Assembly: GCA_035939775.1 (NCBI GenBank) | Contig: DASZFO010000100.1 | Coordinates: forward strand, 1 to 59,505 | DNA length: 59,505 nucleotides | DNA from: Pirellulales bacterium | GTDB taxonomy: Bacteria > Planctomycetota > Planctomycetia > Pirellulales > DATAWG01 | Direction: 5' to 3' | In this document: positions 1-26,900 of the stretch, piece by piece | Layout of the letters: each line of letters starts with the position of its first letter | Position numbering within the stretch: the first letter of the stretch is position 1 | Made by a program: the position numbers and the translations under genes | Notes under the pieces: model-generated | Told to the model about the DNA's origin: nothing | The model's database searches: none | What the model saw: the letters and a program-made list of their open reading frames with translations, nothing else

Positions 1-1002
1 CGCGAACTGACCGAGAAAACGCGGCGAGTTGCTGCCGGAGATCTTGACGGCCCAGTGAATCTCCGTTCGCACGATGAATTGGCCGAACTGGGCGAGAGCC
101 TGAATCAGATGTGTTCGCGGCTCGCCGATTCACAAAACAAGATTCGCGAGGAGACCGCAGCGCGGATCGCCGCGATCGAGCAACTCCGACATACCGATCG
201 GCTCAATACGGTCGGCCGTTTGGCGGCGGGGATCGCCCACGAACTCGGCACGCCGCTCAATGTTGTCGCGGGACGCGCCGGCTTGATCCTGTCCGGGCGT
301 CTTGCTCCGGATGAAATCGGCGTGAGTGCCGCCGCAATCAAAACCGAAGCGGACAGGATGACTAAGATCATCCGCCAGCTCCTCGATTTCGCCCGCGCCG
401 GCACTCCGCGCAAGGCCACGGTCGATTTGCGTTCGGTCGCGACGCAAACGGTCGACCTGCTGCGCGGGCTCGCGGAGGAGCGAAAGGTCCAACTCTGCGT
501 TGCGGCGAGCGGCGAGCCGGCGGTGGCTGCGGTCGATGCCGAACAGATTCAACAAGTGCTGACGAACCTCGTTGTGAACGCGATCCAGGCGATGCCCGAT
601 GGTGGCGAGGTCGAGATCGGCATTGGTCGCCGCGCCGCTAGTGTTCTTGAGGAAGTGCACGGGGGACTGTCCCCGACGTCTCCCTCTCCCTTGACGGGAG
701 AGGGCCGGGGTGAGGGCGTCGCGGAAAAAAAGGGGACTGTCCCCTTCGCGGCGCGCGGTTCTCGGCCCGGTGAATACTACTGCATTAAAGTCCGCGATTC
801 GGGGGTCGGCATCTCGCCGGAGCATCGCCAACATCTCTTCGAGCCGTTTTTCACCACCAAGGGCGTCGGCGAGGGGACCGGCCTCGGGCTATCCATCGCC
901 TATGGCATCGTGCGCGAGCATGGAGGATGGATCGATGTGTCCAGCGAGCCGGGCAAAGGAAGCTGCTTCAGCGTATACTTGCCCGCGGAGACGGAATTGT
1001 GA
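1..1002 (+). CDS. Sensor histidine kinase, C-terminal part (5' end outside window)
   Basis: The reading frame is open from base 1, so the true start lies upstream; the GTG at 55 is internal. Residues encoded by about 1-130 resemble the end of a HAMP linker (AAGDLDGPV, DELAELGESLN). A HisKA dimerisation domain follows with the phospho-acceptor histidine in AHELGTPLN, then a HATPase domain with the N-box (TNLVVNAIQAMPDGG), G1 box (DSGVGI) and G2 (GTGLGLS). The overall type is NtrB/AtoS-like, a membrane-anchored kinase that phosphorylates a partner regulator. The next gene on the same strand is a sigma-54 response regulator, its likely partner. Odd feature: between the N-box and the G1 box the protein carries about 40 extra residues encoded by palindromic repeat DNA (662-744) that keeps the frame. 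Confidence 0.93.
   Translation, partial: RELTEKTRRVAAGDLDGPVNLRSHDELAELGESLNQMCSRLADSQNKIREETAARIAAIEQLRHTDRLNTVGRLAAGIAHELGTPLNVVAGRAGLILSGRLAPDEIGVSAAAIKTEADRMTKIIRQLLDFARAGTPRKATVDLRSVATQTVDLLRGLAEERKVQLCVAASGEPAVAAVDAEQIQQVLTNLVVNAIQAMPDGGEVEIGIGRRAASVLEEVHGGLSPTSPSPLTGEGRGEGVAEKKGTVPFAARGSRPGEYYCIKVRDSGVGISPEHRQHLFEPFFTTKGVGEGTGLGLSIAYGIVREHGGWIDVSSEPGKGSCFSVYLPAETEL
662..744. repeat. Composite palindromic repeat inside the kinase gene
   Basis: Two copies of the palindrome GGGGACTGTCCCC (662-674 and 732-744) flank a second palindrome at about 678-718 (CTCTCCC, 5-nt loop, GGGAGAGG, then GGGGTGAGGGC). Both motifs recur elsewhere in the window outside genes. Here the insertion is translated without a stop or frameshift. 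Confidence 0.9.
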
Positions 1003-1005
1003 AGC

Positions 1006-1058
1006 TGATCCGAAAACCGCCGGGGACTGTCCCCTTCTCCCAGGCGGTTTTGTGAGGG
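1006..1058. repeat. Short copy of the GGGGACTGTCCCC palindromic element
   Basis: An inverted repeat of the type CCGAAAACCGCC ... GGCGGTTTTGTGAGG surrounds GGGGACTGTCCCC. It fills the gap between the kinase stop and the regulator start. It is a shortened member of the ~100-bp family seen at 22553, 23464, 29313, 34641, 46069 and 53294. Confidence 0.85.
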
Positions 1059-1065
1059 GTTCTCA

Positions 1066-2454
1066 ATGCTGATCGACGCAATGAAACCGAAGGTTCTGAT
1101 CGTTGACGACGAGCGGAGCATGTGCGATCTGTTGGAGGCGGATTTGCGGCTCCGCGACTTCGTACCCGTGTGCTTCACGTCGGCGGCGGAAGGCTTTGCA
1201 GCTTTCGAGGGCGAAGATTTCGACGTCGTGCTTACCGATCTCAAGATGCCGGGAATGGACGGCATCGAGTTCTGCTCGCGGCTCGTGGCCAACCGGCCCG
1301 ATATTCCAGTCGTGGTGATGACGGCGTTCGGCAGCCTCGAGACGGCCATTGCGGCAATCCGCGCCGGCGCATACGACTTTGTCACGAAGCCAGTCGAGAT
1401 GGAATTGCTGGGCGTGATCCTCCGCCGGGCGGTCGAGCGGCGGCGGCTTCAGGAGCAGGTCCGCTCGCTCAGCGAGGCCGTCGCCCGCACGTCGCGCTTC
1501 GAGGAGCTGCTCGGCGAGAGCCCGGCGATGGCCAAGCTGTACGATCAGTTGTCGCGGATCGCCGATTCTGAGGCGTCTGTGCTGATCACTGGCGAGAGCG
1601 GCACCGGCAAGGAATTGGTTGCTCGCGCCTTGCACCAACGCAGCCGGCGAAACGAAAAACCGTTCGTCGCGGTGAATTGTGCGGCCATGCCCGACGCGCT
1701 TCTGGAAAGCGAGCTGTTCGGACACATCAAAGGGGCGTTCACCGACGCCCGCAGCGATCGCAAGGGATTATTCGTGCAGGCCGAGGGAGGCACGCTGCTG
1801 TTGGACGAGATCGGCGAAATGCCACTCTCGATGCAGGCGAAGCTGCTGCGGGCGCTCGAGGAGAACAAGGTCCGCCCGGTCGGCGGCGAGCGCGAGGTCG
1901 CGTTCGACGCGCGGATTCTGGCGGCGACGAATCGCGATTTGGAGACGGCCATCGAAGAAGGCCGCTTCCGCCAGGACCTGTTCTTCCGCATCAACGTGAT
2001 TCAGATCGAAGTCGCGCCGCTTCGCTCGCGCGGGGCCGACATTCTGCTCCTCGCCCAACATTTCATCGAGCATTTCGCCGCGCGCGGCAAAAAGGACGTC
2101 CTCGGCATCTCCGAACCGGTCGCCGACAAGTTGCTCGGCTACTCGTGGCCCGGAAATATCCGCGAGCTGCGAAACGTCGTCGAGCGCGCGGTCGCGCTCA
2201 CTCGGCGCGACAAGCTCACGCTCGACGATTTGCCAGAGAAGATTCGCGACTATCGCAGCTCGCAAGTGCTGATCGGCGGCCCCGATCCGGGCGAACTCGT
2301 GCCGCTGGAAGAACTCGAGCGCCGCTACATCCTCCACGTCCTGCACTGCCTCGGCGACAATCGCACCCTCGCCGCCCGCACCCTCGGCCTCGACCGCAAA
2401 ACTCTCTATCGCAAGCTGCGGCAATTTGGGATGCTCAGCGAGGAAGCAAACTAA
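1066..2454 (+). CDS. Sigma-54-dependent response regulator, NtrC family
   Basis: This is a 462-residue bacterial enhancer-binding protein. Residues 6-125 form a receiver domain with the acidic pair DD at 14-15, the phospho-acceptor D58 (LTDLKMPG) and a conserved K near 108. Residues 145-385 are the AAA+ domain: Walker A GESGTGKE at 175-182, the sigma-54 contact loop GAFTDA at 222-227 (a variant of GAFTGA) and Walker B LLLDEI at 243-248. A Fis-type helix-turn-helix is at the C-terminus (LGLDRKTLYRKLRQFG). It lies 63 bp downstream of the kinase and probably forms a two-component pair with it. MKPKVLIVDD at 1081 is an alternative start. Target genes cannot be read from the window. Confidence 0.95.
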   Translation: MLIDAMKPKVLIVDDERSMCDLLEADLRLRDFVPVCFTSAAEGFAAFEGEDFDVVLTDLKMPGMDGIEFCSRLVANRPDIPVVVMTAFGSLETAIAAIRAGAYDFVTKPVEMELLGVILRRAVERRRLQEQVRSLSEAVARTSRFEELLGESPAMAKLYDQLSRIADSEASVLITGESGTGKELVARALHQRSRRNEKPFVAVNCAAMPDALLESELFGHIKGAFTDARSDRKGLFVQAEGGTLLLDEIGEMPLSMQAKLLRALEENKVRPVGGEREVAFDARILAATNRDLETAIEEGRFRQDLFFRINVIQIEVAPLRSRGADILLLAQHFIEHFAARGKKDVLGISEPVADKLLGYSWPGNIRELRNVVERAVALTRRDKLTLDDLPEKIRDYRSSQVLIGGPDPGELVPLEELERRYILHVLHCLGDNRTLAARTLGLDRKTLYRKLRQFGMLSEEAN

Positions 2455-3426: not shown

Positions 3427-4125
3427 TTATTTCAACTTAGCCGATGTCGCTTTGTCCGTGCGAGGTCGGCCTCGGGGCTGCAAGGTGAATTCCAGCCCGA
3501 GTCGTTTCGCGGTGCGAGTCTGCCACTTCTCGGCGCCGAACGGGCGGCCGCGGCTGACCGACAGCTGAATCGCTTCCAACTCGCGTTCGGTTTGAGGCTC
3601 GTTGACCCATGCCAGCCAATCCTTCGGCTCGGCCAACGGCCATTTCGATAGTTCCGGTGGCTCAACCACGGTTTGCTGCCCGATCCGCTGCACGAGGCTT
3701 CCCCACCGCCATCGCTCCGCCTTCTTCACGAGGTTGGCGCGCAGGGCGTTCCGCTCAATATAGCGGACGACCGTGTAGAAATGGTCGCCCTCTTGAACGG
3801 GAAACGACTTGTACGTGCCTTGATGCAAATGCCCGCGTCCTACGCTGTGACGATTCAGATGCCAGCGACGGACATGCGTTCTGGTCAAATGCTGCTTGAA
3901 GGTCGCCAGTTCGCCGTCCGCAATCGGCGAGAGGAGCAAATGCCAATGATTGGGCATCAAGCAGTAAGCGAGGACCCGCATCGCAATCCGCTGCTGCGTC
4001 GTGCGCAGCACTCGCAAAAAGGCCTCGTAGTCGCCATTGTCTTCGAAGATTTCACGCCGATCGTTGCCCCGATTCAAGAAATGAAAAACCATTCCGCCCG
4101 GGGCAATTCTCGCGGCTCTTAGCAT
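3427..4125 (-). CDS. REP-associated tyrosine transposase (RAYT, Y1/IS200-like)
   Basis: This 232-residue protein has the Y1-transposase signature of TnpA_REP proteins: the N-terminal FHFLNRGNDRREIF, the HUH-like metal-binding motif LMPNHWHLLL near residue 58, and the late segment FYTVVRYIERNALRANLV carrying the candidate catalytic tyrosine. RAYTs cut and join single-stranded DNA at REP hairpins and are normally single-copy domesticated genes. GGGGA-type motifs border the gene on both sides (3345-3424 and 4150-4172). Its 5' border cuts into a decayed Rhs fragment, so the gene appears to have inserted there. The length fits the family and the gene looks intact. Confidence 0.93.
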   Translation of the reverse strand: MLRAARIAPGGMVFHFLNRGNDRREIFEDNGDYEAFLRVLRTTQQRIAMRVLAYCLMPNHWHLLLSPIADGELATFKQHLTRTHVRRWHLNRHSVGRGHLHQGTYKSFPVQEGDHFYTVVRYIERNALRANLVKKAERWRWGSLVQRIGQQTVVEPPELSKWPLAEPKDWLAWVNEPQTERELEAIQLSVSRGRPFGAEKWQTRTAKRLGLEFTLQPRGRPRTDKATSAKLK

Positions 4126-4506: not shown

Positions 4507-5330
4507 TGCTGTCGGACCAAAACGCCTTGCGACTCCAAGAGTTCCTCGGCGACGGGAAATTCGGCATCAGACAGTTCCCAGAGCCAAAGCGAACTATCGA
4601 GCTTCGAGAGCTTTCCGATGCGTTGCGGCAGGAAATCAGCTTTCTGCAAATGGGCTTCGGAAAGAATGCTCACAGGATACGCGCCGCGGAATAAACCCGT
4701 CAAATGGCGATCCTTCCCGCCGATCTCATCCTGCCAAAGGCGATCGGCGCTCTTCCGATACGTGCCAGCGCGGCGCGCTCTTGCCTCCTCTTTGAACGAT
4801 TCGAGCGTTACCGCCTCACCGCCCATGGCATACCTGCTAGGGTGCTGCGAAAGCGGCATTTTGTACGCGAAACCATAACGCACTTCAGAAATACCTTCGG
4901 CGAGCGCACACGCGCGCCGAAGCAATTCGCGCGGATCGGGAATCAGTCCGTCGTCGATTCCAAAGTACAACATCGGGAAATTGAACGTCCCAACGCCAAC
5001 GTCGGCGCGCCAATCGGATCGATCGCTAGAACCAGCGCGCGGCGAGTCGAATTTCAAGTACTCGACCTCGCCCATTCGCAATGCATGGACTAGCTCGCCC
5101 GCGCGCGCGCGCAATGCCTCGCCCCACAGGCTAATGTCATCGCCTCGTTCCGCCAGCACATAGCAATCGTCGTGCAAGAATCCGCCCCCGAATGCGGTAA
5201 ACAGAATCGGCGACAGATTAAACTCGTTGAATGTTTCAATCGCGCGATCATAAAACCGCAACGGGATCGAGCTGCCTCGATCGCCGGCGAAGAACAATGC
5301 GGCGGACGTTGTGATTTGATCGTTGCTCAT
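4503..5330 (-). CDS. Putative immunity protein for the Rhs tip
   Basis: I chose the ATG at 5330 (MSNDQITT, 275 aa), which overlaps the TGA stop of the giant Rhs protein as ATGA; an open frame extends 7 codons further. The protein is soluble, has no signal peptide or membrane segment, and is rich in aromatic and acidic residues (for example FGGGFLHDDCYVLAERGDD, WLWELSDAEF). I recognise no family with certainty. The role is inferred from position: in Rhs and other polymorphic toxin loci the gene directly after the variable tip usually encodes the cognate antitoxin. Overlapping codons suggest translational coupling, so the cell would make immunity whenever it makes toxin. Confidence 0.7.
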   Translation of the reverse strand: MSNDQITTSAALFFAGDRGSSIPLRFYDRAIETFNEFNLSPILFTAFGGGFLHDDCYVLAERGDDISLWGEALRARAGELVHALRMGEVEYLKFDSPRAGSSDRSDWRADVGVGTFNFPMLYFGIDDGLIPDPRELLRRACALAEGISEVRYGFAYKMPLSQHPSRYAMGGEAVTLESFKEEARARRAGTYRKSADRLWQDEIGGKDRHLTGLFRGAYPVSILSEAHLQKADFLPQRIGKLSKLDSSLWLWELSDAEFPVAEELLESQGVLVRQQ

Positions 5331-8300
5331 TCTGGTTGTGTGGCTCGCCAAATAAACTCTTTGGGATCGACCACATTGACCTCACCCCTCATTTCCGGCG
5401 GCAGTTGGCTTTGAGCCGTCTTGAGCTTTGTCACCAGTTCGTCGATAGTCTGCGACGGGCTTCTGAATTCGGCCATGTCGATTTGTCCGTCGGTCGTCAA
5501 CCCCATGAAGTCCGGTTCGATGTTTGGCGAATGGCTGAGGCCCGAGAACTCGCCGAGCCTGATACTGCCCTGCGAGATTCGCTTATAATTGCCGGTCTCT
5601 TGCGCCGCCTCGGCGTACGTCCGCTGGAGCAACATGTGCTCCGGCGTCCGTGGCGTGTCGATGACGCCTTCGATCGGCGGATAGCTTGCATCCAACCGGG
5701 CGATACTTCTTGGCGCGGTCGGATACTCGAAGTTCGCAAACGGCGCTCCCGTGTCGAATTGGCCGATGACTGGGGTTGGCTCGGCAACGAAGTGAATCGA
5801 ACTCAATTCCGCCGTTGCCGTGCGAGCCGCGTTCTCCACCTCCAGCGTTGCGTCTCCGGCGAGCGAATCTCCTGCGGTCAGAGCCGCGAGCGTCGCATTG
5901 AATAGGAACTCTCCCTTTCCTTCTTCCGTGCTCAACTGCTGGTTGAGTCCTTGCACAACTGCGTTGCCCGTGTCAATCGGGTGCAGGAGCGCGTTCGCGA
6001 AAGCGATGTCCGAGTCGATCGGGTGCAGCGCGTTTTGCAGCAGTCCTCCGGCCAGGTTCTTCGGGCCATCCCAGAAGTACCCCTTCAGCGTGCTGAGCAT
6101 GTTCGAGCCATAGCCCGCGTAGGGCGTCGGGCCGCCCGACACCGGCGCTCCCGAGCCGCTCGACATCAGCATTGCCAGGGACTCCTCCGCGGTTGGCGCC
6201 TGCTCCATGCCGCCCCCAACATAGTTCGCCGCCCACGCCTGGACGCTCCCCGCGCTCACGGTCGGCTCCTGCGGCGCCGTCGGAACGTCCCGCGCCACAT
6301 ATTCGTTCTGCCAATCAATCGCTGCCTGCGCGCCGGTGTCGGTGAAGGAATAGGGATTGAAGGCGGGCGAGCTGGCCAGGTCGTAGCCGGTCGTGGGAAC
6401 GTTGATGGATTGGGCGCAGGCGCCGGTCGGGTCCGTGGCGTTGCCCGGATTGTCGCCGACGTAGGCGTAGGGTTCGCTGCCGCCGAGGCCAGATTGATCG
6501 ACGCTGAGCCAGGTCGCCGAGAGAGGATCGTAAATGCGCGATTCGGATTGGTAAAGCCCCGTCGATTGGTCGTAGCGCATGCCCCCTTCGCCAACCGAGA
6601 ATGCGGCGAGGATGCTCGTGCTGCCGGTCGGCGCGCCGTAGCTCGTGAACTTGATGTGCCCGCCGCTCACCAGCGAGCCGCTGCCGTTCACGACGTCGCG
6701 CGGGGTGCCTTCGTTGTCGGCCAGGCCCCACAGCACGCTGCCGCTCGTGCCCAGGTCGTCGTCCGTGGCCAGGATTTCATCCACGGCCAACGCATACAAC
6801 TCCCGCTGCGAGATTTTCGGGGTCGTGCTCGTGCCCGCGCCGGCCAGCTTGTTCGCATCGCTGACTTGCAGATACGGATTCGCGCCGTCGTAGACCGTGT
6901 AAACCGCCGGCTGGCTCGTTTCATAGCGGGCGATCTGCCGATTCGCAGAGTCATAGCCGTAGCTCACGGTGTCGGTGACGGCCCCCGCGCTCGTCTCGGC
7001 GGTGACGCTCGTCAGCCGGTCGCGATTGTCCCAAGCGTAGACGGTGATCGTGCCGTCGGAGAGCTTCGTGCGCTTCGTCCGATTTCCTTCGGCGTCGTAT
7101 TGATACGTGTACGTGCCATCGAACGTGAGTCGGTTCGCCGCGCTGGTGCTCGCGCCCGTAGAGCCGCTGGCCGTGCGGTTGCCGTTGGAATCGTAGGAAA
7201 AACTTTCGCCGGTCAGGCTGGCGCTCGTCAGCTCGTTGGCGTTGTCGAAAGCGTAGTTCGCCGTGCCGTCGAATGAGGTCTGTTGCGTGACGTTGCCGGC
7301 CGCGTCGTATTGGAATGCATAGCTGTGCGTCGCGCCAAAGACCTGCTGCAAATTGGTGAGCCGCCCGTCGCCGTCGTACCCCGAGCCGGCCCCGCCGGAG
7401 GTTGTGCGATACTTCGTGGTCGCGGCCAAGGTGTTCGAAGTGCCGTCGTAGCGCGCGATCGTGTCCAAGCTGCCGTCGGCGTTGTAGGTGAAGTTCACCG
7501 TCTTCGGCGTGATTCCGCTCGCGCTATAGCCGCTCGTGTTCTGCTGGGCGATCTGCGTCACGTCCCCCACCGCGTCGTAGAGATAGCTGGTCGTCCCGCT
7601 CTTCGCGCTCAAGCTCGACAGGTCTGACTTATCCGTCACGCTCTTCGTCGTGCCGTCGGCATTATAGCTATAGTCCAACTCCTCCAGCGCCTTCGGCACG
7701 GCCGCGGTCACGACGCCGCCCGACGTGGTCGGCGGGTACTGCGCCACAAGATCCCCCGGCGCCATCCGCACCGAGGCGACCCGGCCGTCGAGATCATAAG
7801 CATACTGATAATTGGCCGCGTTCGAAGCGTTTTGCGTGTCGGTCTCGGTGATGCCGGTGACCTGCCCCGCCGCGTCGTACCAGGTGCGGATCGTGTGGAA
7901 AGCGCTCGTGGCGGCGGCGGTCGTGAACCAATCCTCCTCGATCTGCCGATTCAGCTTGTCATAGCCGTAAGTCGTTTTCCGGCCATCGGCGTCGATCTTC
8001 TGCGTCAAGTTGCCATCGGCGTCGTAGGAGAGCAGCGTCGAGACGGGGGCCGTTTGGGTCACGCCGGCCGGCGTGGTGTAGACCACCGCCTCGGTCTGGC
8101 TCGTCTCGCGATTCAAGTGATCGTAGCTGAAAGTCGTCGTATTGCCGGCCGGATCGGTCACGCTCGTGACGTTCCCCAGCGCGTCGTACGCGGTCGTCGT
8201 CCTCCCCACGGTGCTGGTGGGAAACACTCGTGGATCGGCCCCCAGCGCGCTGACGGAAACGGTCCGGCGGTTCAACCCGTCGTACACGCTGTACGTCGTG

Positions 8301-11300
8301 TGCTTGTCCGGATCGGTCATCGAGAGCACGTTGCCATCCGCGTCGTAGGTCCAGGAGGTCGTGGGGCGAGCGGCGCCGGATTGCGGGGCCGGGTCGATTT
8401 CGCTCAACTGTCGGCCCAGATTGTCGTAAGTGACTTGCGTGGTCCGGTTAAGCTGGTCGGTGGCGGTCGACACCCGCCCCAGCTCGTCGTACGCCGTCGC
8501 CGTGCTGCCCAGCGCGTCGGTCACGCTCACGGGCAGGTTCCAGCCATCATAGGCCGTGTCGGTCTCGTGCTGCAACGGATCGACCGCGGCCGTGACGTTG
8601 CCATCCAGATCGTAAGACCAAGTCGTCGTGGGATTCGTTTGGCTGGAAGCCGGGCCGGAGAACTGAGCGGGGGCCGGAGCGATCTCCTTGACCTTGCGGT
8701 TCAGGGCCTCGTACTGGAACTGGGTCGTTCGCCCCAGCGGATCCGTCACGCCCAGCACATTCCCGACCGCGTCGTAGAGCTTCGTGGTCATCTGGCTGGC
8801 GTCGGTCGGCCCGCTCCCCAAGGCATCGACCACCTGGGTCTGCTCCCCTTCGAGGTTGTAGCCGAAGTAGGTATTGTTGCCCAACGGATCGGTCGTTTGA
8901 CTCAACTCGCCGGTCTGGTTGTAGGTCAAGACGGTCTGGGGTCTGGGGGCTGGCGACTGGGAGTTGGGAAGGAACCCGGGACTGGGGTCGATCTCCTTCA
9001 CCTTCCGGTTCAGATTGTCGTAAACGTATGTCGTCGTGAAAAAGTGGTTCGTGTCGTTCGTGGGGGAGTTTGCATCGAGATAACCGCTCGGATTCTGATC
9101 GATGTACGGTTGATGGTTGTTCGGATACGCCGCGTTGACGACGTACTGCAAATTGCCGTTGTTGTCGTAAAAGAACTGCGTGGCCAGATCGTCGCTCGCT
9201 GAATCCACGAGGACATTGATCTCGGCCGTCTTGCGGTTTGCCTGGTCATAGACGTAATTTGTCTCGTGACCGAGCGGGTCGGTCACTGTAAGCACGTTGC
9301 GATTGTCGTCATACGTGTACACGGTGGTCGGCCGAGCCGCTCCGCTGCTCGGCGCCGGCTGGATCACGGCGACGACTTCGCCGAGATGGTTGTAGTCGGT
9401 CTCGGTCGTGTGGGCCGTGTCGGTAGAGCCGCTCCCCAGCGCATCGGTCACGAACATCTTGTCGTTCGCGTCGTCGTACTTCGTCACTGTCGTGGCGGCG
9501 GTGAGCGGCCCGCTCCCGTCCGGGTCGGGCAGAATCGTCTTGAGGTTGCGGCCCAGCGCGTCATAAGTGAACTGCGTCGTGTTTCCGTTCGGATCGGTCG
9601 TGGCGACGACGCGCGAGCCGCCGTCGTATCGCCAGGCGGAGATCGGGGTCGTCGTCGAGAGACCGGACCCAACAGTGCCGCCCGCCGCGACCAGTGGCAC
9701 GGGATCGATCTCGGCAATCTTCCGGTCTCGCGAATCATAAACATACTGCGTCACTCGGCCGAGCGCGTCGGTCGAATAGATCAGGTTCCCGGCCGGATCG
9801 AACTCGGCGGTCGTGTAGGTGCCGTCGGGATTAACCGACTTGACGGTGCGATTCAGACCGTCGTACGAGGCCGTCGTGGTCCGCAACGAAGTCGCCGGCG
9901 CCGACGCCGTGGCAAGCATGGTTTGCGTGAGATTTCCGTTGGCGTCGTAGGTGAAGTTTGTCTGCGGCTGGACCAGCGGACCGTTTGTGCCGAGGGCCGC
10001 GAGATTGTCCGGGTCCGGCTGCTGCTCGGCGATGAGGCGATCGAGCGGATCATAATTCGGATAATTCGTGACGTTCCCGTTGCCGTCGGTGCTGCTGGTG
10101 AGATTGCCGTGGCCGTCGAAGGCCCAGCTCCGCGTGATCGATAGCGACGGCGAGACTTGGGTTGTCGTCGAGGTCGTTTGCCCGGCGGAGTTATAGGCGT
10201 ACGTCGTCGTATAGCTGCTGCCGTCGGTGGCCCCATGCGCGTCGGGCGCGGTGACCGTCAGCGGCTCTCCGCGGCTTGTCGAGGGATACGTGTAGGTCGT
10301 GTAATTGCCGATATAGTTCCAGGTCGCGGAATCGTTCGCATCTTCGATGGATTGATGGAGACTGCCGTCGGAGTTGTACGAGTAGCTGGTGACGTCTCCT
10401 CCGAAGGATGACGTGTTGACGACGAGCGGCTGGCCAAACGCCGTGGTTGTGCCGTTGGCGCCGGGAGCTGAATAGGCGGTCGTCGTCGTTCGGCCGAGCC
10501 GGTCGGTGAACGACGTCACGTTTTCCGGATAATTGGGATCGCCATGAACGAACGTCTCCGTCTGCCCATACTCGTCGGTGTCGGTCTGCTTCAGATCGTT
10601 CAACCAGGTGGCGGTCGTCGTCGTCTGATCTGGATTGAGCTGCTGGAGAACGTTTCCATCCTTGTCGTAATCGTACAACGTGGTTTGGTCGTTCTCATTC
10701 GTCGCCGCCGTGCGGTTGCGGAAGAGGTTGTACGAGAAGCTCTGCGAATTGCCCAGCGTGTCGGTCACTTGGAACCCGCGGCGGTTGGCGTAGTAAGTGA
10801 ATTGCGTTTTGTTGCCGTTCGCATCGATGACGGATTGCAGCAGGTCGTGCAGCGCCGGCGAGGGACTCGCGGTCGTATCGAAGTAGGCGTACTGCGTGAC
10901 GACGGCCGCTTCGCCGCTCGCCACCGGGGCGGTGACTGAGATCAGGCGGCCGGTCGAGGCGCTCGAGTCGTAACCGTACGTCCAGGTGCGCGGCGACGTC
11001 GGAATCGTGTAATCGGTGATCGACGTGACGTGGTTTCCGGTGTACGAAAAACTGAGATAGCGGCTCGTGTCGCTGGGATGCGACGGATCGATGGCCGTGA
11101 CGGTGGAGATGGTCGCGCCGCTGCGGCTGATGTTCACGCCGTTGCCGTAGCGGTCCTTGATCTGGGTAACGTAATACGTCCCCGAGCCGCCGTTGCTGAA
11201 CGTGATTGTCGCTCCGGTCTTGTCCGTCCAGGTGTAGGTTGACGTGCTTGTGTTGAAGCCAAGCGCGCCGAAGATCGTGTCCGGCGTGATGTAGCCGGCC

Positions 11301-14300
11301 GTGGGATTGCTGGGGTTGGCGGGCTTGAACGCCAATCGCATTCCCGTATCGGTGAACCAGACCATCGTGTTCGCCGGCTGGGGACCGTCGATTGTTGTAG
11401 AGGGCGCGAGCGTGTCGCTATACATGAATGACCAGCCGTCCCCCATGCCGCGGTCCGGCAGGGCGGTTTGTCCCTGAGCAGGCGTGTCGAACGAATCGTA
11501 ATGCCGCGACATTCCCAGCGGCGCGCCGAGATTCGGGACGCTGACGTCCGTGGCGTCCTGGATCGCGTCGCCGTTGGCCGTATTGATCGGATCACCGACA
11601 ACGGCCGTGTTCGCGCTCAGCGAGACGTTGTCGGCGCTCTTTTCGTCCCCCGCGCCAGCGCCGCCGTGCGGAGCATCCCACACGCCGTTGATCGCGCCGT
11701 CGATGACGAAGCCCTGCGTTAAGCCGGCGCTATTGACGAGCATGTAGCCAATTCCCGTCCAGGGCCCCTTTGGATTTGGGGTGCCATGGGTCCCGTTGCC
11801 GACGATCACCTCGTAGGTCGGCACCCGGGCAGTAAAGCCCGAGCTGACCGCTGCCTGAATGTCGGCGATGAGGTGGGCGTTATCGGCGTTGTTAACCCCG
11901 TAGTGCAGCTCGCCGTTTAGCGTGTTCGTATCGTCGTTCGATGAGGTGATGGTCAGGAAGGTATTCTGGGCGTTTTGCTGCTGTTCCAACTGGAACGCTT
12001 TGACGGTGGAGATGCTGTCGTAGTTGGTAAGCTCCTCCCAGATGAGTCCTTCCATCGACGAGTTTTGATACCCCATCAAGAGATCACGGTTCAGGTCCTG
12101 CGAGTGGTCGTCGTTGATGGAGATGCCGGCCCACGAGTTGCTCGGCACGTCGATGCCCATGCCCGTGGGAAGATAAGGGAACTGCAACGCCGAAGCCGCG
12201 GCCGGCTGAAGCACCCAATCGCTGGTCGCGAGCCCCGAGGCGACGAGATTGTAAAACGGCACGGCGCCCGTCAATCCGGCAATTTCACTTTCCCCCGCGT
12301 CACATTGATTGAAATACTGGATCGCCGCCAATTGAAGCAGCCCGCCAATAAGGTGGTCCTTGTTCGCGGCGTTCTGATTGATCCACGTTGGCAGAGCGCT
12401 CTGGCTGTCAGCCTGGCTGATTTCCGCCGAGTTGACCGTCTGCCGGATGCTCGTCAGCATTTGCTGGGACGTCTGATTGGCGTCCAAGCCGACGGCCATA
12501 TACTTGCCGCACGGACGGCTGTACACTTTGCTGTAAGATCCATTGGAGAAACTATATCCCGCGCTGGCAAAAGCATCGGCCGGCGCGCCTCCGGCGAATA
12601 CCTGGACGATCACATTCATCGATTCCCCATAGCCCGCACGGTACCTTTGAGAACCGACGGAAAGTGAATTCGGGTCGGCCGCTCCATCCAGGTAAACATG
12701 CGGCACGAACCCGGTCGAGACCCACGACGTAACCGTGACCAAGTTGCCAAAAGAGTTGTACGTAGAAACAGTATTCCAATAGCCGGTGTCCGTGTATCCG
12801 ACGGTAAGCCGCCGCAGGCTGATGTCCGCCAGGTTCTCGCGAGCCGTGGTGAGGGAAAGGGCGACTGGGTTTCCAACGGCGGCGCCGGTCGCATCCCCGG
12901 CGACCACCAACTGATTGGGTTGCGCGGGATCATATTTGACGATTTGAAATCCTTGCTCGCCGCTGCTCTCGCCGATGAACAGCAGCGATTGATTGACAAG
13001 CGTCGAATCAAACGCGGCCACGGTGCAGGTGATCGTCGTCGTGTGCGTCGATGCGTTGTATTGACTGACGCCGGAGACCGTGCAACCCGGCACTGGATCA
13101 GCGACGGCGATCTGAACGAAATACTGGTCCTGCGACGGGATAGCTGAATTCAATGTCTTGCTGGATTGACTCCAATGCGCCGAAGCGGCCGGCAACGAAG
13201 TAAAGACGTGTTGGCGGATCAATCCGGTATATGGCACATCGGCGATCGTCTGGGCCGCACCGCTGGACGCGAGGCTTTTCCGCACCTGGTTCTCGTAATA
13301 CTCGGCCGCCGATTGTGTTTGCGGCGCCGCCAAATAGCCCGTCTGGTCGAACGCCGCGGAATTCAACATGTCGGGCAGGCCGGCTTGATAGTCGAATTGC
13401 TTCCACGTCGGATCGAGGACGACCGGATGGGCGCCGATCGTGCCTTCCAACCAGGTATGATCGAACGTCGCGTAGCTGGAAGACACCGTCGGATTGAGTC
13501 CCGCCAAGTTTAGCACGTTGTAAACGGCCGAGGAAGTCTGCACCCCCAGCCAGTTCTCGACCGCGCCAATCGGATCGGTCACCTGGCTCGTGGCATACTG
13601 CAAGCCGCTCGCGCCGGCGGCCGCCATGAGCTGGACCAAGAGCGAGTCGGTGTCCCAATCGTTACCGGCCCCGGTTTCCAGCACCGCCAACGGTCCTTTC
13701 ATGGCGCCCCGGTACGGCTGGTACTGGATCGTATTGACGAGATACTGATAGATCTCGATCGGCAGCTTGTAGAACGCGCCGGCAAGGTCTTGGTAGACCG
13801 TGTTGACAGCCGATTGATAGCTAGCGCCGCTGGCCTGCGCGGCTGCGACAATCGAAGCGGCGTTCGCGACGATGGATTGCGGATTGTTCGGGGCGATATC
13901 GACGGTGAGCAGCTTGCCGGAAAGGTTGGAGTACCAAGGCGCGCTCGTGCTCGTGGAAAGAGGATTGCCGTAGACGAACAGGCTCGTGAGCGCCGGCTCG
14001 TTGGCCACGGACGTGGGCACAGAGGAGAAGTTGTTGTATCGCAAGTCGAGCGTTTGCAAGTGCGCGAACGTCGGCAGAGCGCTAACCGGGTTGCCGAGGA
14101 CCGCGTCGGTGATCCCGCACCCTTGGAGCGTCAGGCTGGTCAATTGGGTGAGCTTCGAGAGCGGCGAGAGGTCTGGCAGACTTGCTCGCGTTGCATCCTG
14201 AGAGAAGTCGCTGGGCACGAGCGTGAGCGACTGGAGATTCGTTGCATTGGCGATCCCGTTGAGCGATGTGACATGGCTGCTGTCGACGGTGAGCGAGGTC

Positions 14301-17300
14301 AACTGCGCCCACTGGGCTGTCGTCGGGGTCGCGCTGGCGGACAGGCCGAGCGCCTGGTCGGCGGCCGCGACGATCGCCGCGTCCGGCGTGGTTGAAACGG
14401 AAGCCACGCTGAGCGTCACCGCGGTGTTCGACCGATTGAGCGTCAGCGTGTAGGGCTGGCCATTCAAGGTGCAGGAGTCCATGGTTTGCCCATCGAGAAA
14501 CACGAAATTGCCGCCGCTGTTGAGACCGCTCGACGCCGTGATGAGAGTGTACGAGGAACTCACGCTGCTGCCGATGACGTTGACGTTGACTATGTTTGTG
14601 CCGCTGACGCTGGCGATGCCCGCGACGGCCAGTTTGTCGGCGCTGCTTGCGCCGACGTCAAAGGACAAATTGGCGCCGCCGAGCGTAAGGCCCGCGGCGG
14701 AGGTGGACGACTGCTGGACGCTGAACGTTCCCGTGGCGCCGTCACTCATGCAGAACGTCGATCCGAAATCGAGCGCGAGCGTGGCGCTGCCGGTGCTCGG
14801 ATTGCCCGCGTAAATCGTTGTCGATCCGGTCTGGGCATCGAGCGTCCCACCGTATGCGACGTGGATCGCGGTGTTGCCGAGCGATGCGGCCGAGCCCATC
14901 GTCAGCGAGCCGCCGTTGTTGACGGTCGTTGCGCCGGAATAGGTGTCGTGGCTGTTGACCGTGAGCGAACCGTTGACGGCGACCGACAGCGCTCCGCCGC
15001 CGTCGGCCAAGGCGCCGGTGTTGAGGGTGTTGGTGCCGGCGAACGTGACCGTCGCGGCGCCGCTCCCCGAATTCATGCCGCCGGATACCGTCAGGTTGGA
15101 GATCGTTGCAGGGCCGCCCAACGTGATCAGGCCGCTGGCGGCGCTGCCGGCGCCAACCAGAGCGCCTCCGCCGCCGGCGCCGGTTCCAACGAGGCCGGTG
15201 ATTTGATTGGCGAGTGTTACTGAGGGGCCCAAATCCAACTCTCCGCCGCTCAAGAGCGAAACGGCGCCGGTTCCAAGCGACGTGGAGCCGTTCGCGACGA
15301 TTGTGCCCCAATTGCTTCCATACACAGTCGTTCCGCCGCTATACGTGTTTGCTCCGCTCAGGATGAGCTTCCCCGCGCCCTCCTTCCACACGCTGCCGGT
15401 GCCGCTGATCACGCCGGAATACGTCTCCGTCATACCAGCCGGAACGGCGAAGATCAGCGCCGCGCCGCTGGCAACGTATATGTTGCCGGCGACAGAGCCG
15501 ACGTTGGCGGTCCCGTCGCCGATTTCCAAATAGCCGGCGCTGATTGTGACGCCGGCGGGGCAGTCGTTTGATCCTGTAAGTGTGAGGACTCCCCCGTTCG
15601 TCTTATTCATGACGGCGCTGCCGGCGAGGACGGAACCGATCGTATCGTCGGCCGTGGCCGGGACGTCGATGTTGGCGCTTGAGTTCGCCAGATTGATTTG
15701 TCCTCCTTGAATGTTGTAGTACGCGATCTGGAAGTAGATGTCAGCAGTCGTCACCTGCGAATCGACCGTGACCGTCCCCGCGCGATCCTTAAAATAAGCG
15801 GCTGCACCGACCGCGTTCTGCGGGTAAGTCTGCTCGGTGCCGTTATACTGCCAGAGCTGCGTCAAGGTTTGCCAATGACCAGTTCCGCCGAGACCATTGG
15901 TCAGACGGTTATTCGAGACGAGTCCGTCGGCGTCCCAATCCCACTCTTGCGACAGTTGGGCGCTGGCGGGTACAACAGTGCGAACCGTGCCGCCGCCGGT
16001 GGTCGTGGATTGTGCCACTGCCAGGAATGTCGGCGAGCCCGCGAGCGCGCTGGTGTCCACTCCCGTAAGCGTCCAGCCGCCGGGCCTGAAGCTGGAGCCG
16101 GAACCCGCGCCGCCGCCGCTGCCCGAGCTGGAGCCGGAGCCCCCGTCGAAGCCGCTGCCGGTCCCGGAGTAGATGGTGTCGATCTTGTCGGCCGGAACCG
16201 CCGCGCCGAGATAGAAATCGACTTGTTGCACGTCGCCCCAAGCCGCCACGTCGTCGGCTGTCAGGGTCACGTGTGTTGGATCATAGGGAACGGGCGTGAT
16301 AATGAGCTGGCCGATGGTCACCGCGGTCGGCACGTTTCCTTCGGCGCTCGATTCGGCGGCCGTATCGAGGATGGTCACGCTCCCTTGATAAAAGAAATCC
16401 CCACCGCGCCAACCGACGCCGGAAGTGCCAATCGTGGCAACCCTGCCAGCATCGGATGAATCGACAGTCCCACGGAGCTTCGTGTCGCCGCGATAGGTGT
16501 ATTTCACGAGCGTGTCGTACTGCGTCAGGTTGGAGAAGCCGTCCCACGAATTCCAGATCGCGCTCCCGCTGTGGTCACTATTGGCGTGAGAACCGTCGTC
16601 GTTGAGGATCACGCCAAGCGCCGTCATTCCCGTCGTCGGGTTTGATGAATCCGTCTTGTGCTGCTGATCGTAGGCGGCCGTGCTGCTGGTGATTCCGCGG
16701 CCGGTCCATGAATGATCGCTCGCCTGGCCGGACCGCACCATGTCGTTGACGTCGGAATAGTCGCTCGGCGCAGTCGTCTCGCTTTGATCTGGTGGGGCGA
16801 CGATCAAATCGTTGTTCATCATGTCGAGCGTGCCGTAATACACCGTCGATCCCGGCGCCGCTTCGTTATTGTCGATCGAGATCGAGCCGAGCATGCTCGT
16901 GCGGGCCGTGTCATGGGCGACTGGCGTCTGATCACCGCGGATTTGCACCGAGCCGAACGAACTCGTGGTGCCGTGGATCGTGAGGATCGCTTGCCGAATG
17001 AAATCAGCCGTCAAACCGCTGCCCGCACTGACGGTCAAGGTGCCCGCGCCGTCGATCCCGCCGATTTTCTGGTTCGCGCCCGAGACGAGCAGCGTTCCGT
17101 CGTTCCACACAGCGACGCGATTATTCGCATCGGCAAGCATCGCGACGGAGCCGCCCAATTCCACGGTTGCTCCATGCGCGACGACTGCGCTCACTCCCAC
17201 GCCGATCGACGGGCCGGTCGACGAGTCGTTCGGATCGGCTGCAAGGTGAAGAATTCCCGGCGCGTCGACCATAATCTGACTGAATCCGCTAAGCGTGGGA

Positions 17301-20300
17301 GCGGTGTCGATGTCCAACTCTCCTTCTTTGACATCGAGCGTGGCCGAGGAGTCGAGGGTCAAGCCGCCGAGCACGAGCGTCCCCGAGTCGGCCGTGGCCA
17401 GCGTCGCGCCTCCGCCGACCACAATATTGTCGGGCACAGAGCCGGTGTTGCTCGACCCATCACCCAATTGCAGCGTGCCGCCGCTGACGGTGGTGCCGCC
17501 GGTGTATGTATTGGCGTTCGTGAGATTCAATGTCCCTGCGCCGATCTTAGTCAGACTCCCGCTGCCGCTGATCACGCCTGAATATGTCGTTGCACCGCTT
17601 GGAACGTCAAAGATCAGCGTTCCGCCGTCAACGATATTGCTTGCCACATAGCCGACTGTCGAATCGTCACCAAATTGCAACGCGCCGCCGCTGATCGTGA
17701 TGGCGCCGGCGGAATAGTTGGAACCCGTAAGAACCGTTGTACCCGTGCCGGCTTTCGTTAAGGCGACGGAGCCCGAGCCGTTATAGATATTTCCTCCGAA
17801 GGTCGTGGAGGACGAGTTGTCGGTTCCGACGGTTAACGTCGCAGGGGCTGAGGCCGAATTCGAAATTGACCCTGCGCTGCCTGCCAAATCGCCAAAGCTC
17901 GCGTTGTGGCCGTTCAAATCGAACGTGCCGCTGTTGAGAGTCACGCTCGATGAGACTTCAATCGACGTATTCAGTTGAAGCGTTCCAGATTCTATATCGA
18001 GGCTCTCGATCGGCGCGTTGCTATTGCCACCGAGGTTCACCGTGTCGTAGCCAGCATCGAGCGCAATCGTCAAATTGGCTTGGCTCATATTGCCGTCGAG
18101 CGTGATGCCGCCGCTCCCTGCAAACGTAAAGCTGCCCAAGATGGCTCCGCTGATCGTCACGGGAGCGCTACTGTTGATCAAGGTGCCATATCCGTCGATT
18201 GGCGACGCAAGATTTACGCCGTGGAGATCGAGCGTTCCTCCGCTGAGATGGATAGTCGTCGTTGAAGCCAGGGTCTGGTTCAACTGAAACGTGCCCCCGC
18301 CAACGTAGACTCCTGAAGGAACATCGATCTGCGAATTCAACTGCACGTGGCCATTGTCCACGTCGAGACCGCCCAGCGACGCAGTGCTGCCGCCGAGAGT
18401 CGAGATACTGGCTCCGTCGGCGGAGAAAGTAAGATTCGCTTGGCTGAGGTCGCCGTCGAACCCGATGTTTGCCGCGCTGCCTGCCACGGTGAAGCCGCCA
18501 TAGACCGGCCCATGGATGTGAGCGGCGCTTCCGCTATTGGTCAGCGTGCCGTATCCGCTGATGGGCGAACTCAGATCAGCTCCGTTGAGATCCAGCGTGC
18601 CTCCCCGACAGTAGATCGAGGTATCGCTCGCTAAATGGCCGTTCAACTCGATCGTGCCGCCGTTGGCGCGCACGCCCGAGTTGACGCTTGTATTCATGTT
18701 GAAGGCAACGACGCCGGACTCAATGTCGAGACCGGCGATTTCATCGACTGTTGTGCCCGCGGGGAGCAATCCGCCGTTGATGTCCGCCTCTCCGTTTGAG
18801 ATGACCGACAGATTGGCTTGATGAAGATCGCCGTCGAAGACGATATGGCCTTGCTCGACGGTGACCGAGCCGGCGACCGTGGCAGCCAAGTGCATGCTTG
18901 CGCCGCTGTTGATCAGCGTGCCGCTGCCTGTGATCGAGTCGGAGACGGAGATTCCTTGACCGGCGAGGTCAAGCGTCCCGCCATCCAAGCTCACGGTCAT
19001 GTTGCTGCCGATCGCGTTGCTGCCGCCGAGCTTGAGCGTGCCTGAGACGACGGTGACGCCGTGCAACGTGCTTCCGACGCCGAGGAGCACCCTGTTGCTT
19101 GACTTGAACGTCAAGTTGGCGGAACTGAGGTTCCCATCGAGCGTGATGGCGTTGCTTCCGGCGACCATGCCGTTCCCAGATATTGGGCCGTCGACAATTG
19201 CGGTCGCGGTGTTGCTGTTTATGAGCGCGCCGCTGCTGGAACCGCTCGTCGGGAACGCTAGGGCGATCGTGGAGTCGAGGTGTTGGCCGTCCAGGTCCAA
19301 GGTTCCGTTGTCAGAAATGGTCGTGCCGTCGGCAATGGCTTGTGCGTTGGCGAGCGTGAGCGATCCCCCGTTGATCCAGGTGCCCCCGGTGTATGTATTG
19401 CTGCCGCTGAGGATTTCCGAGCCATTGATCTTCAAGGCCAGGGTTCGGCCCGAGCCGCCATTTTGCAGGGTTCCGCCGAATGTGCCGGAACCGTTGGAGG
19501 TCAATGCGATGTTCGTCGAACCAACGGAGTTGGTGACCGTTCCCGAACCGGAAAGCGCCCCGATCGTCTCGTTGTGGCCTGCCAAGTCAAGCGATGCCGC
19601 GGAGGCGACTGAAACCGCCGAATTCGCGCTCCACGCGCTATCGGTGCCGCCCTTGAGCGACCCAGCCGAGACGGTCGTCGCGCCGGCGTACGTGCTCGAT
19701 CCCGACAAGGTCAACGCGCCGCTGCCCGTCTTGGTCAAGCTCCCGCTACCGCTGATTGCCCCTGAGAACGTTTGCGTCGAGGAATCGGCGAAGATCAGGG
19801 ACCCGTTGTCTGCAATATCGCCGCCGACGGACCCATTGATCGAAGTCCCATCTCCCAGTTGCAGCGTTCCAGCGGTGATTGTCGTCACGCCGGTGTAAGA
19901 ATTCGTGCCGAGCAGGGTCAGCGAGCCGCCGCCGGCGACCGTCAGCGTCGTGCTGCCACCAATGCTCGATGAACTGACGTCGGTAATGGTCAACGCGTGC
20001 GATGAGTCGTTTTGAAACAGGAGCGTCGATGGAGTAACGTTGCCCGACACGGTGACGCTCGTGCGCGTCGCGCGATTGTCGAAGATGACGGCGTCGCCGT
20101 CGCTGTATAGCACGTTCGCCGGCCCGCCGGAGGTTGAAGACCAGTTGGCCGTTGTCGTGTTCCAATTCGCCGAACCTGCAGTTCCGACCCAGTAAATCGC
20201 GCCGTTGGAGACGGTCAGTAATTCCACCGAGGCCGAGTTGGTCAGAGTCAGCGTGTAGGCTTGCCGATTAACAACGACGGTCTCGGAGGTTGCACCGTTA

Positions 20301-22162: not shown

Positions 22163-22552
22163 GTTCGATCGCTCCTGGCCTTGAGAGCGGCAAATGGGTT
22201 TCCGGAAACGCTGCCGCACGCGTTCGCTGAAACAGGTTTTGCAGCACTACAGGATGCTGACGGATGAACTGGCGACGATTGCCACAAATAGACGACCCGC
22301 TGGCTGCCGGGGGAGCCCCCCACAAATCCAGCGGTTCGTCGGAGTATAGGGATCGCGCGATGAATTGCAAGCAAATTCTTGGGCCACTTTCTAATTCTCT
22401 CCAACGCGCTTCAACACCGTGGTTCGCCTGCTCACACGAAACTCATCGCAGTCTCGCGATTCCACGACCGTGAGCGAGCCGTTGAGAGAGCGGTCTCGGT
22501 GCCAGAGCTAGAGAGCATTGCCCTTATTTCGACGATCGCCGACACAGTTAGT
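22163..22552. other. Intergenic region upstream of the giant gene
   Basis: About 390 bp without a supported gene. It should hold the promoter of the giant gene (reading leftwards), with the Shine-Dalgarno AGGAG just before the GTG. I see no convincing promoter boxes. Confidence 0.5.
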
Positions 22553-22649
22553 GCCTATCCGAATACCGCCTGCGGAGAGGGGGACAGTCCCATTTTGTTC
22601 CGAAGACTCCACAAAATGGGACAGTCCCCGGCGGAATTCGGATAGGCTC
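22553..22649. repeat. GGGGACAGTCCC palindromic element, copy 3
   Basis: GCCTATCCGAATACCGCC at the left end pairs with GGCGGAATTCGGATAGGC at the right. Inside are two inverted units (GGGGACAGTCCCATTTTG and CAAAATGGGACAGTCCCC). It directly touches the stop codon of the glycosyltransferase gene at 22650 and could act as its transcript end. Confidence 0.9.
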
Positions 22650-23905: not shown

Positions 23906-26900
23906 TTGGCACGAACATGGAAGCGCGGCTCGCGGCGGCATCGATCTTCAAGGAGCAAGTCCCGCAGGCTCGCGCCCGAACGTCTCGAAGGGCGCTGGAT
24001 GTTGTCCGCCACCAACATCCTCACCTATCTTAACGACTTGGCCGGCACGGGGGCGAACACCAACGAAACGGCGCTCACCCCGGCGGACGTCAATGCCAGC
24101 CAATTTGGCAAGCTGTTCAGCTCGAGCGTCGATGGGCAGGTTTTTGCCCAGCCGCTCTTCATGGCCAACGTCAACATTACGACGGGGGCCAATCAAGGCG
24201 TTCACAACGTCGTGTTCGTCGCCACGGCGCACGACAGCCTCTACGCCTTTGACGCCGGCAATGGCGCGGTGCTTTGGCACACGAGCTTTATCAATAACAC
24301 CAATGCCGGCGTGCTCGACGTCAATCCAAACATCAACGCCAGCACCGTCGTCACATCGGTCCCCAGCGCCGACGTTAACTCGACCGACATCAATCCCGAG
24401 GTCGGAGTCATCGCCACCCCAGTGATCGACCCATCGACGGGAACGATCTACTTGACCGCGAAGACCAAGGACGTCGTCAACGGCAACACGAGCGCTCCCG
24501 ACTACGTGTATCAGTTGTATGCGATCGACATCGAGAACGGGCGCTTGCAGACGTCGATGGGCGGAGGGGTGATGCAGTTTGCCGACACCGTCTACAGCGG
24601 CGGAAACTACACCAACACGACTTCGATTTCGGTCGCCGCGACCACGCCGTCGGCCATCGGACAATCGGGGGGCGTCATCAAGTTCAACACGCTCCGGGCG
24701 ATGGATCGGACCGGCTTGACGCTCTACAGCGGCCAGATTTACATCGGCTTCGCCTCGCACGGCGACAATAATCCGTACCACGGCTGGGTCGTCGCCTTTA
24801 ATGCCAACAATTTGCAGCTCAACGGGGTTTTCTGCACTACTCCAGGCGATCAGGAGGGCGGCATCTGGCAAAGCGGCGGACGAATCGAGATCGGTTCCAG
24901 TGGGGCCTTGTATTTCGAGACCGGCAACGGTGGGTTCGCCGGCGTCACGTTGAATGGAACCAATCCCACTCCGGCCCTAAACTCCAACGGGTTTCCGGTC
25001 GACGGCGATTACGGCGATGCCGTGGTGAAACTCGTGGTGGATCCGACGACGACGCCCGCCAGTCCCGGCCAAAACGGTTGGGGCCTCAAGGTGTCGGATT
25101 ATTTCGCGCCGTCGAATCAGCAGACTCTCGACAATAACGACACTGATATGGCCTCGTCCGGCCTGGTGATTCTGCCGAATTCCCTGGGCGATGCCGCGCA
25201 TCCCCACTTGCTGCTCGCCCGCGGCAAATCGGGCGTGATCTATTTGATCGACCGAGACAACATGGGCAAGTACAACTCGAGCACCGACCTCGTGGTTCAA
25301 GAGTTCACCGACGCCGGCGGTTTCTGGAGTTCGCCGACGCTGTTTCTAACCAACGCCGGCGGAACGACCGCGAATTTCTATGGTACTTACTACGGCGGCG
25401 CTTTGCAGCAATGGTCGATCAGCAACGCCGCATTTTCCACGAGCGTGGTGCACACCGGCCCAGACACATACAATTTTCCCGGCGCCACGGGATTCATCTC
25501 GGCCAACGGCACGTCCAACGGAATCGTTTGGGAGGTGGAAAAGAACAGCGGTCAACTGCGGGCCTATAGCGCTGCCAACGTGAGCACGGAACTTTATACG
25601 AGCAACCAAAACAGCGCCCGCGACTCGATTAGCGGCAACGGCGTCATCAAGTTCAGCGTGCCGATCGTTGACAACGGAGAGGTCTTCGTGGGGACCGGCA
25701 ACGCGCTCGTGGTCTTCGGCGAATTGACGGCCGTGACGCAGGCCCCCGCGGCCCCGACGAATCTGGCCGCCAGCGCCTTGAGCGCTTCGCAAGTCCAGTT
25801 GACTTGGACGCGAAACTCGACGAACGAATCCGGTTTCGACGTCGAACGCTCGACCGACGGCGTCAATTTCGCTCAAGTCGGACTGGGGGACGCCGGCGCG
25901 ACGGCATTCATCGATTCGAACGGTCTGCAACCGGACACGAAATACTATTATCGCATTCGCGCCATCAATAAGATCGGCAATTCGGCATACTCGAACATCA
26001 CCAGCACCACGACTTTGTTTGGCATCGTGGGGCTTTGGGCCGATTCCGATGTCGGCGCACCCGGCGCAACTGGCGGCGCCAGCTTCGCCAACAACACCTA
26101 CACAGTGTCCGGCTCCGGCAACGACATCTTCAACGCCAGCGACAACTTCCACTACATCTATCAGCCGCTCAATGGCGATGGCACGATCATCGCCCAGATC
26201 CTCACGCAAGCAAACACCAGCGGCGGGGCCAAGGCGGGCGTGATGATCCGCGCCACGCTCAACGGCAATTCAGCCTTCGCCGACGTGGTGACCACTCCGG
26301 CCGACGGAGTGCTGTTTCAGGACCGCACAACGACCGGCGCAGCCGCCGCTACCGTCGGAAGCATTAGCGGGTCCGCGCCCGAATGGGTCATGCTGGTGCG
26401 CTCTGGCAATGTGATTACCGGATATGCTTCGGCCAACGGGCAAAGTTTCACGCAACTCGGTTCGACGACGATCAGCATGGCGTCGTCCGTGTTCGTCGGC
26501 CTGGCCGTCACCAGCAACAATGACGGAGCGCTTAGCACCGCCACGTTCAACAACGTGCTGGTCGCGCCGCCGCAGACTTACGCAAGCGATCTGAGTTGGA
26601 CGTCCGCGACCGACGGTGGATCGCTTTCCGTGCAGAAGGACAAAAGCCAAAATGGCAATTCGATCATGCTGGGAGGCATCGCCTATGCCAAGGGCCTGGG
26701 AGTTCGCGCGAATTCCGACGTCGTTTACGCCCTCAACGGTCAATACACCAATTTTATCTCCGACATTGGGATCGACGCCGAGGTGGGCAACAGCGGCGCG
26801 GCCGATTTTCAGGTCTATGGCGACGGCCATCTCTTGTACGACAGTGGGACTCTCACCGGCGGTGGCACGATCGGGCATATCGTGGTGAACGTCGCCAATG

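Follow-up and report, generated by a model that had tools for sequence, protein, structure and literature searches.

The sensor histidine kinase gene at the 5′ end of the window (the whole stretch of 59,505 nucleotides analysed here) carries a dispersed palindromic element in frame, and the open reading frame (1-1002) stays open across the whole of it. Very probably, the insert is a copy of a high-copy, non-autonomous palindromic element, a selfish but frame-compatible sequence that the kinase tolerates as a disordered loop. As the earlier note had described, the insert contains two exact GGGGACTGTCCCC palindromes and a CCCTCTCCC/GGGAGAGGG hairpin (Table 1). The same note had credited the element with roughly 40 residues; the in-frame reading holds, but the core accounts for 28 (residues 221-248). 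Translation of such inserts would give the peptide stretch KGTVPLSAGGSR. Contig C100 breaks off at its 5′ end within the gene, which leaves the N-terminus of the kinase outside the view. The remainder matches PF00672 (4.4e-10), PF00512 (3e-13) and PF02518 (2.3e-27) and comprises a DHp and a Bergerat-fold domain with intact, invariant N, G1 and G2 boxes; HK853 and ZraS are fold matches of its model (Z about 24). The response regulator encoded downstream is likely the partner of the kinase. A second copy of the element lies in the gap that separates the kinase stop (1002) from the regulator start (1066), where it could serve as a hairpin within a transcript common to both genes.

Table 1 Positions of the kinase, its inserted element and neighbouring features in the window
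Feature	Position	Strand	Basis and remarks
Sensor histidine kinase (HAMP, HisKA, HATPase_c)	1..1002	+	Pfam; 5′ end cut by contig edge
First core palindrome GGGGACTGTCCCC	662..674	+	Exact match; translated (G)GLSP
Inner hairpin CCCTCTCCC-TTGAC-GGGAGAGGG plus CCGGGGTGAGGG	682..716	+	Sequence; translated SPSPLTGEGRGEG; specific to 70-spacing variant
Second core palindrome GGGGACTGTCCCC	732..744	+	Exact match; translated KGTVP
Right terminal inverted repeat remnant, GCGGTTCTCGG of consensus GGCGGTTCTCGGATAGGCTC	755..765	+	Identity to consensus right arm
Second copy, single palindrome, right arm of GAACCCCTCAC type	1013..1060	+	Sequence
NtrC-type sigma-54 response regulator	1066..2454	+	PF00072, PF00158, PF02954
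Y1 tyrosine transposase (RAYT-like)	3427..4125	-	PF01797 8.2e-13; flanked by AAAAGGGGATAGGTCC and GGGACTTATCCCCTTTT

Comparison with orthologs, which the earlier note had proposed, confirmed that the insert is additional sequence: it is absent from six orthologs (48-54% identity) and from the relative L085. The distance from G202 to the G1 aspartate (Asp266) is 65 residues in the kinase. The six orthologs from the order span 31-40 residues and L085 spans 26, which makes the excess 25-39 residues. Equally long loops of non-repeat sequence, which in orthologs the note had held to speak against its reading, do occur at the insert site in L010 and L011 (69 and 64 residues, unrelated in sequence), but these are distant paralogs (32-38% identity), and in every one of the nearest homologs the loop is short. 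The paralogs thus point to an insertion site that is tolerant of length.

In the AlphaFold model of the kinase (mean pLDDT 79.5), the insert has a pLDDT of about 40-46 and links strand 202-212 to strand 258-266, the far end of which carries the G1 aspartate. The model therefore places the insert in a β-hairpin that follows the N-box helix and precedes the G1 strand, and not in the ATP lid as had been supposed, since the lid region (about 285-293) forms a separate low-confidence stretch. Because strand 258-266 ends at the G1 aspartate, the turn should lie at its opposite end and thus some eight residues away from the nucleotide site, a distance that we infer from strand order. The insert is most likely a disordered, roughly neutral loop.

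The kinase insert belongs to a family with a high copy number in its host. The 6.39-Mb genome, a draft of 384 contigs in which several copies lie near contig ends, contains 385 exact copies of the GGGGACTGTCCCC palindrome and none of the reversed control; with one mismatch allowed, the window alone has 24 strand-matches, against 0.08 expected in shuffles. Across 196 other genomes of the order, the count is 0-46 palindromes each and zero in most. The complete element occurs in G030 and G111 at up to 87-88% identity, and G001 has mostly the core alone, without outer repeats; in G121 (C1:512843-513795 and 1052560-1053247) the palindrome stands in tight arrays and is not dispersed. A search of Rfam with positions 600-1100 gave no match, and a text search for the palindrome sequence in one literature library retrieved no paper. 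The RNA fold of the insert is strong (z -4.9), but this is expected of palindromes and was given no weight toward an RNA role.

To define the architecture, we used a sample of 647 kb around copies, in which the 37/55 type is over-represented. It yielded 167 elements, and two palindromes are present in 148 of these. A complete unit reads terminal inverted repeat (TIR), palindrome, inner hairpin, palindrome, linker of 8-9 bp and TIR, and mostly forms a hairpin of 99, 117 or 132 bp, or of 100 or 118 bp. The TIRs are ~20 bp long and of three types, the outer repeat being GAGCCTATCCGAGAACCGCC or related. The inner module differs with the spacing of the palindromes: a TTCG stem at 37, a GGCACCATCG hairpin at 55/57 and the CCCTCTCCC hairpin at 70. 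Both TIRs (≤2 mismatches) were found in 83 of the 167 elements, and in 39 of these 83 the 3-bp flanks are identical, mainly TAA or TTA, and in only two inverted, a signature of transposition. The REP insertion proposed in the earlier note therefore stands in part: the core is REPIN-like, but the TIRs and target duplications rule out a plain REP, and the kinase insert is a variant of a MITE-like element that bears both. Its arms are eroded, and it belongs to a rare variant with 70 spacing, a pattern found at six sites in the genome, that in RecG among them; the 70-spacing copies L041 and L072 have the same module. The CCCTCTCCC/GGGAGAGGG hairpin occurs without GGGGACTGTCCCC palindromes at about 39749, 57842 and 58044 (minus strand), and so seems to be a repeat family of its own that the 70-spacing variant has captured. 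Elsewhere in the window, complete copies at 22580, 23494, 29333 and 34662 lie in the gaps beside very long open frames (5327-22219, minus strand, 5630 aa; 23906-29308, plus strand, 1800 aa; 29489-34534, plus strand, 1681 aa).

The kinase is one of many genes with such an insert. About 39 of the 148 sampled paired units lie in frame inside coding sequence, as called from a hexamer coding score computed for each flank, and the product of their translation is probably an additional loop in the protein. Pfam and PDB alignments continue across the inserts in KdpA, RecG, LpdA, NadE, PolX and an FGE-sulfatase, as well as in HD hydrolases, an ABC ATPase and an altronate dehydratase. The RecG segment, a net insertion of 111 bp, is absent from 11 relatives; a 7-bp repeat, spaced by exactly the length of the insertion, bounds it. 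In L190 there is a 9-bp repeat, but direct repeats flanking in-gene copies show no clear overall excess. Two in-gene copies, L065 (around 2987) and L184 (around 3724), have an extra small left-arm hairpin read as RRVEHPP, a further module. In-gene copies retain a recognisable left TIR in 12 of 45 cases and a right one in 27 of 45. The kinase copy lacks a recognisable left arm when compared with the consensus, its right arm is partial and its flanks show no clear target duplication. With left TIRs mostly unrecognisable, the route of insertion is uncertain for the in-gene copies, that in the kinase included.

The in-gene copies are marked by their compatibility with the reading frame. Among copies with coding flanks on one strand, any frame being allowed, 33 keep the frame and one shifts it, a result that is stable at other thresholds. 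The spacing classes differ as well, 37/55/70 having 33 copies in genes and 47 not and 39/57 having 2 and 38 (Fisher p 1.4e-5), a contrast that is partly circular because the in-gene calls demanded one frame, whereas the 33-versus-1 test is not. All ten two-armed in-gene copies measure 99, 117 or 132 bp, two of them with 39 spacing, whereas lengths of 100 and 118 bp are common among intergenic two-armed copies. Together with a 3-bp duplication, the former lengths add 102, 120 or 135 bp and preserve the frame; the 100- and 118-bp classes shift it. Copies inserted in the same orientation use one reading frame in 24 of 24 cases. TTA targets leave a second frame open as well, but this alternative (GTVPFCG...GDCPP) is used by none of the 24.

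In order to rationalise this distribution, we propose that a trans-acting transposase probably moves the element through its outer repeats, and that the core might also move separately as a REPIN. Units of 99, 117 and 132 bp, which keep the frame and contain no stop in some frames, would survive at tolerant sites in genes; frame-breaking insertions would be purged, and the tolerated, disordered loops would remain. A parent IS would be recognised by its GAGCCTATCCGA ends. An IS5-type parent was sought through PF13586 and PF01609 and not found: PF13586 transposases are absent from the genome, and none of the four PF01609 matches has matching ends.

A tentative alternative with some support is that the core alone is mobile through a Y1 transposase, as in REPIN/RAYT systems, such that the TIR-bearing form is a MITE with a captured core and the kinase copy a bare REPIN. 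The genome has four Y1_Tnp genes, one of them in the window and a possible mobiliser of the core; two are flanked by related GGGGAY repeats. The Y1 gene of L034 has GGGGACATTCTAC and its complement GTAGAATGTCCCC on its flanks. The predominance of the core without outer repeats in G001, and the missing outer TIRs of the kinase and RecG copies, also favour this alternative. Against it, no exact GGGGACTGTCCCC was found in the 1.5-kb flanks of any of the four Y1 genes, and complete units carry 3-bp direct duplications at their outer TIRs, a product that is not known from RAYT/IS200-type chemistry. We regard it as possible but rather doubtful that the family as a whole has been selected for gene compatibility through its class lengths, its stop-free frames and the favoured frame RGLSP...KGTVP, the peptide being selected as harmless or useful.

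The domestication suggested in the earlier note is taken here to mean that the insert was selected to tune the kinase by way of nucleotide exchange, partner choice or stability. This we consider improbable, even though the frame and catalytic boxes are intact and erosion of the outer arms has left the frame open. About 38 other, unrelated genes have such inserts, the loop is predicted to lie outside the ATP lid and to be disordered, and the paralogs L010 and L011 have equally long unrelated loops, which together leave the suggestion that the insert could alter kinase activity unsupported. Moreover, the palindromes of the kinase copy are still exact, suggesting a young insertion and not a long adaptation, and no insert-bearing relative of the kinase was found that could show conservation. 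It is very improbable that the insert reflects a repeat-induced mis-assembly or that the gene is an untranslated pseudogene, despite the fragmented draft with copies near contig ends and the kinase gene cut at an edge, as both kinase flanks match one ortholog along their full length, the sequences on either side of the RecG insert share 74-76% identity with a single contiguous G001 gene, and chimeras or dead genes should retain the frame by chance alone, yet 33 of the 34 copies with coding flanks keep it.

Returning to a frame-compatible selfish element as the preferred explanation, its closest parallel in behaviour is provided by the Rickettsia palindromic elements (RPE), especially RPE-1, which are dispersed palindromes of ~100-150 bp found within unrelated conserved genes, where they keep the frame and contribute an extra peptide (PMC10969869). 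Insertion in frame into many unrelated genes is common to both, which we take as a likeness of behaviour and not as membership, no sequence relation being evident. The present family differs in its TIRs, its 3-bp TAA/TTA duplications, its modular core, its sister lengths that keep or break the frame and its GC-rich, planctomycete-like host. GTAG/CGTC-tagged REPs and their dimers likewise occur in coding regions in Opitutus terrae, Thauera and R. conorii, often adding 20-30 residues, many of them in DNA repair and replication genes (PMC3733652). RecG and PolX are among the genes interrupted here too, but our complete units have long TIRs and target duplications, and no unpaired GTAG or CGTC tag lies beside GGGGACTGTCCCC in the aligned copies or the consensus. 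With REPINs and their RAYTs the family shares two palindromes and a conserved spacer as a dispersed unit, in a genome that has Y1 transposases; unlike REPINs, however, its palindromes are direct copies of a near-palindrome, the exact palindrome flanks no Y1 gene and the TIR ends come with duplications. The IS5/IS1031 group has ends that start with GAG and makes a 3-bp TNA-type duplication. Judged by these general group traits, the family resembles IS5/IS1031-type MITEs in both respects and in being short and non-coding, but its interior is a REPIN-like core and not an IS remnant, and the search through PF13586 and PF01609 found no parent IS with such ends in the genome. The family is best read as a separate composite, MITE-like with TIRs and target site duplications around a REPIN-like core, in which length classes split gene-invading from intergenic copies.

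The best-known cases of in-frame mobile palindromes come from Rickettsia and from a small number of REP-rich genomes. As the sister length classes of one element in one genome differ here by one base modulo three, the acceptance of selfish DNA as limited by frame and stop codons becomes directly testable, and the choice of encoded peptide for tolerance likewise becomes testable in a single genome. For annotation, the family calls for caution: where a predicted protein from such a genome contains SPSPLTGEG or KGTVPF, the segment can stem from mobile DNA that is translated and not from native sequence.
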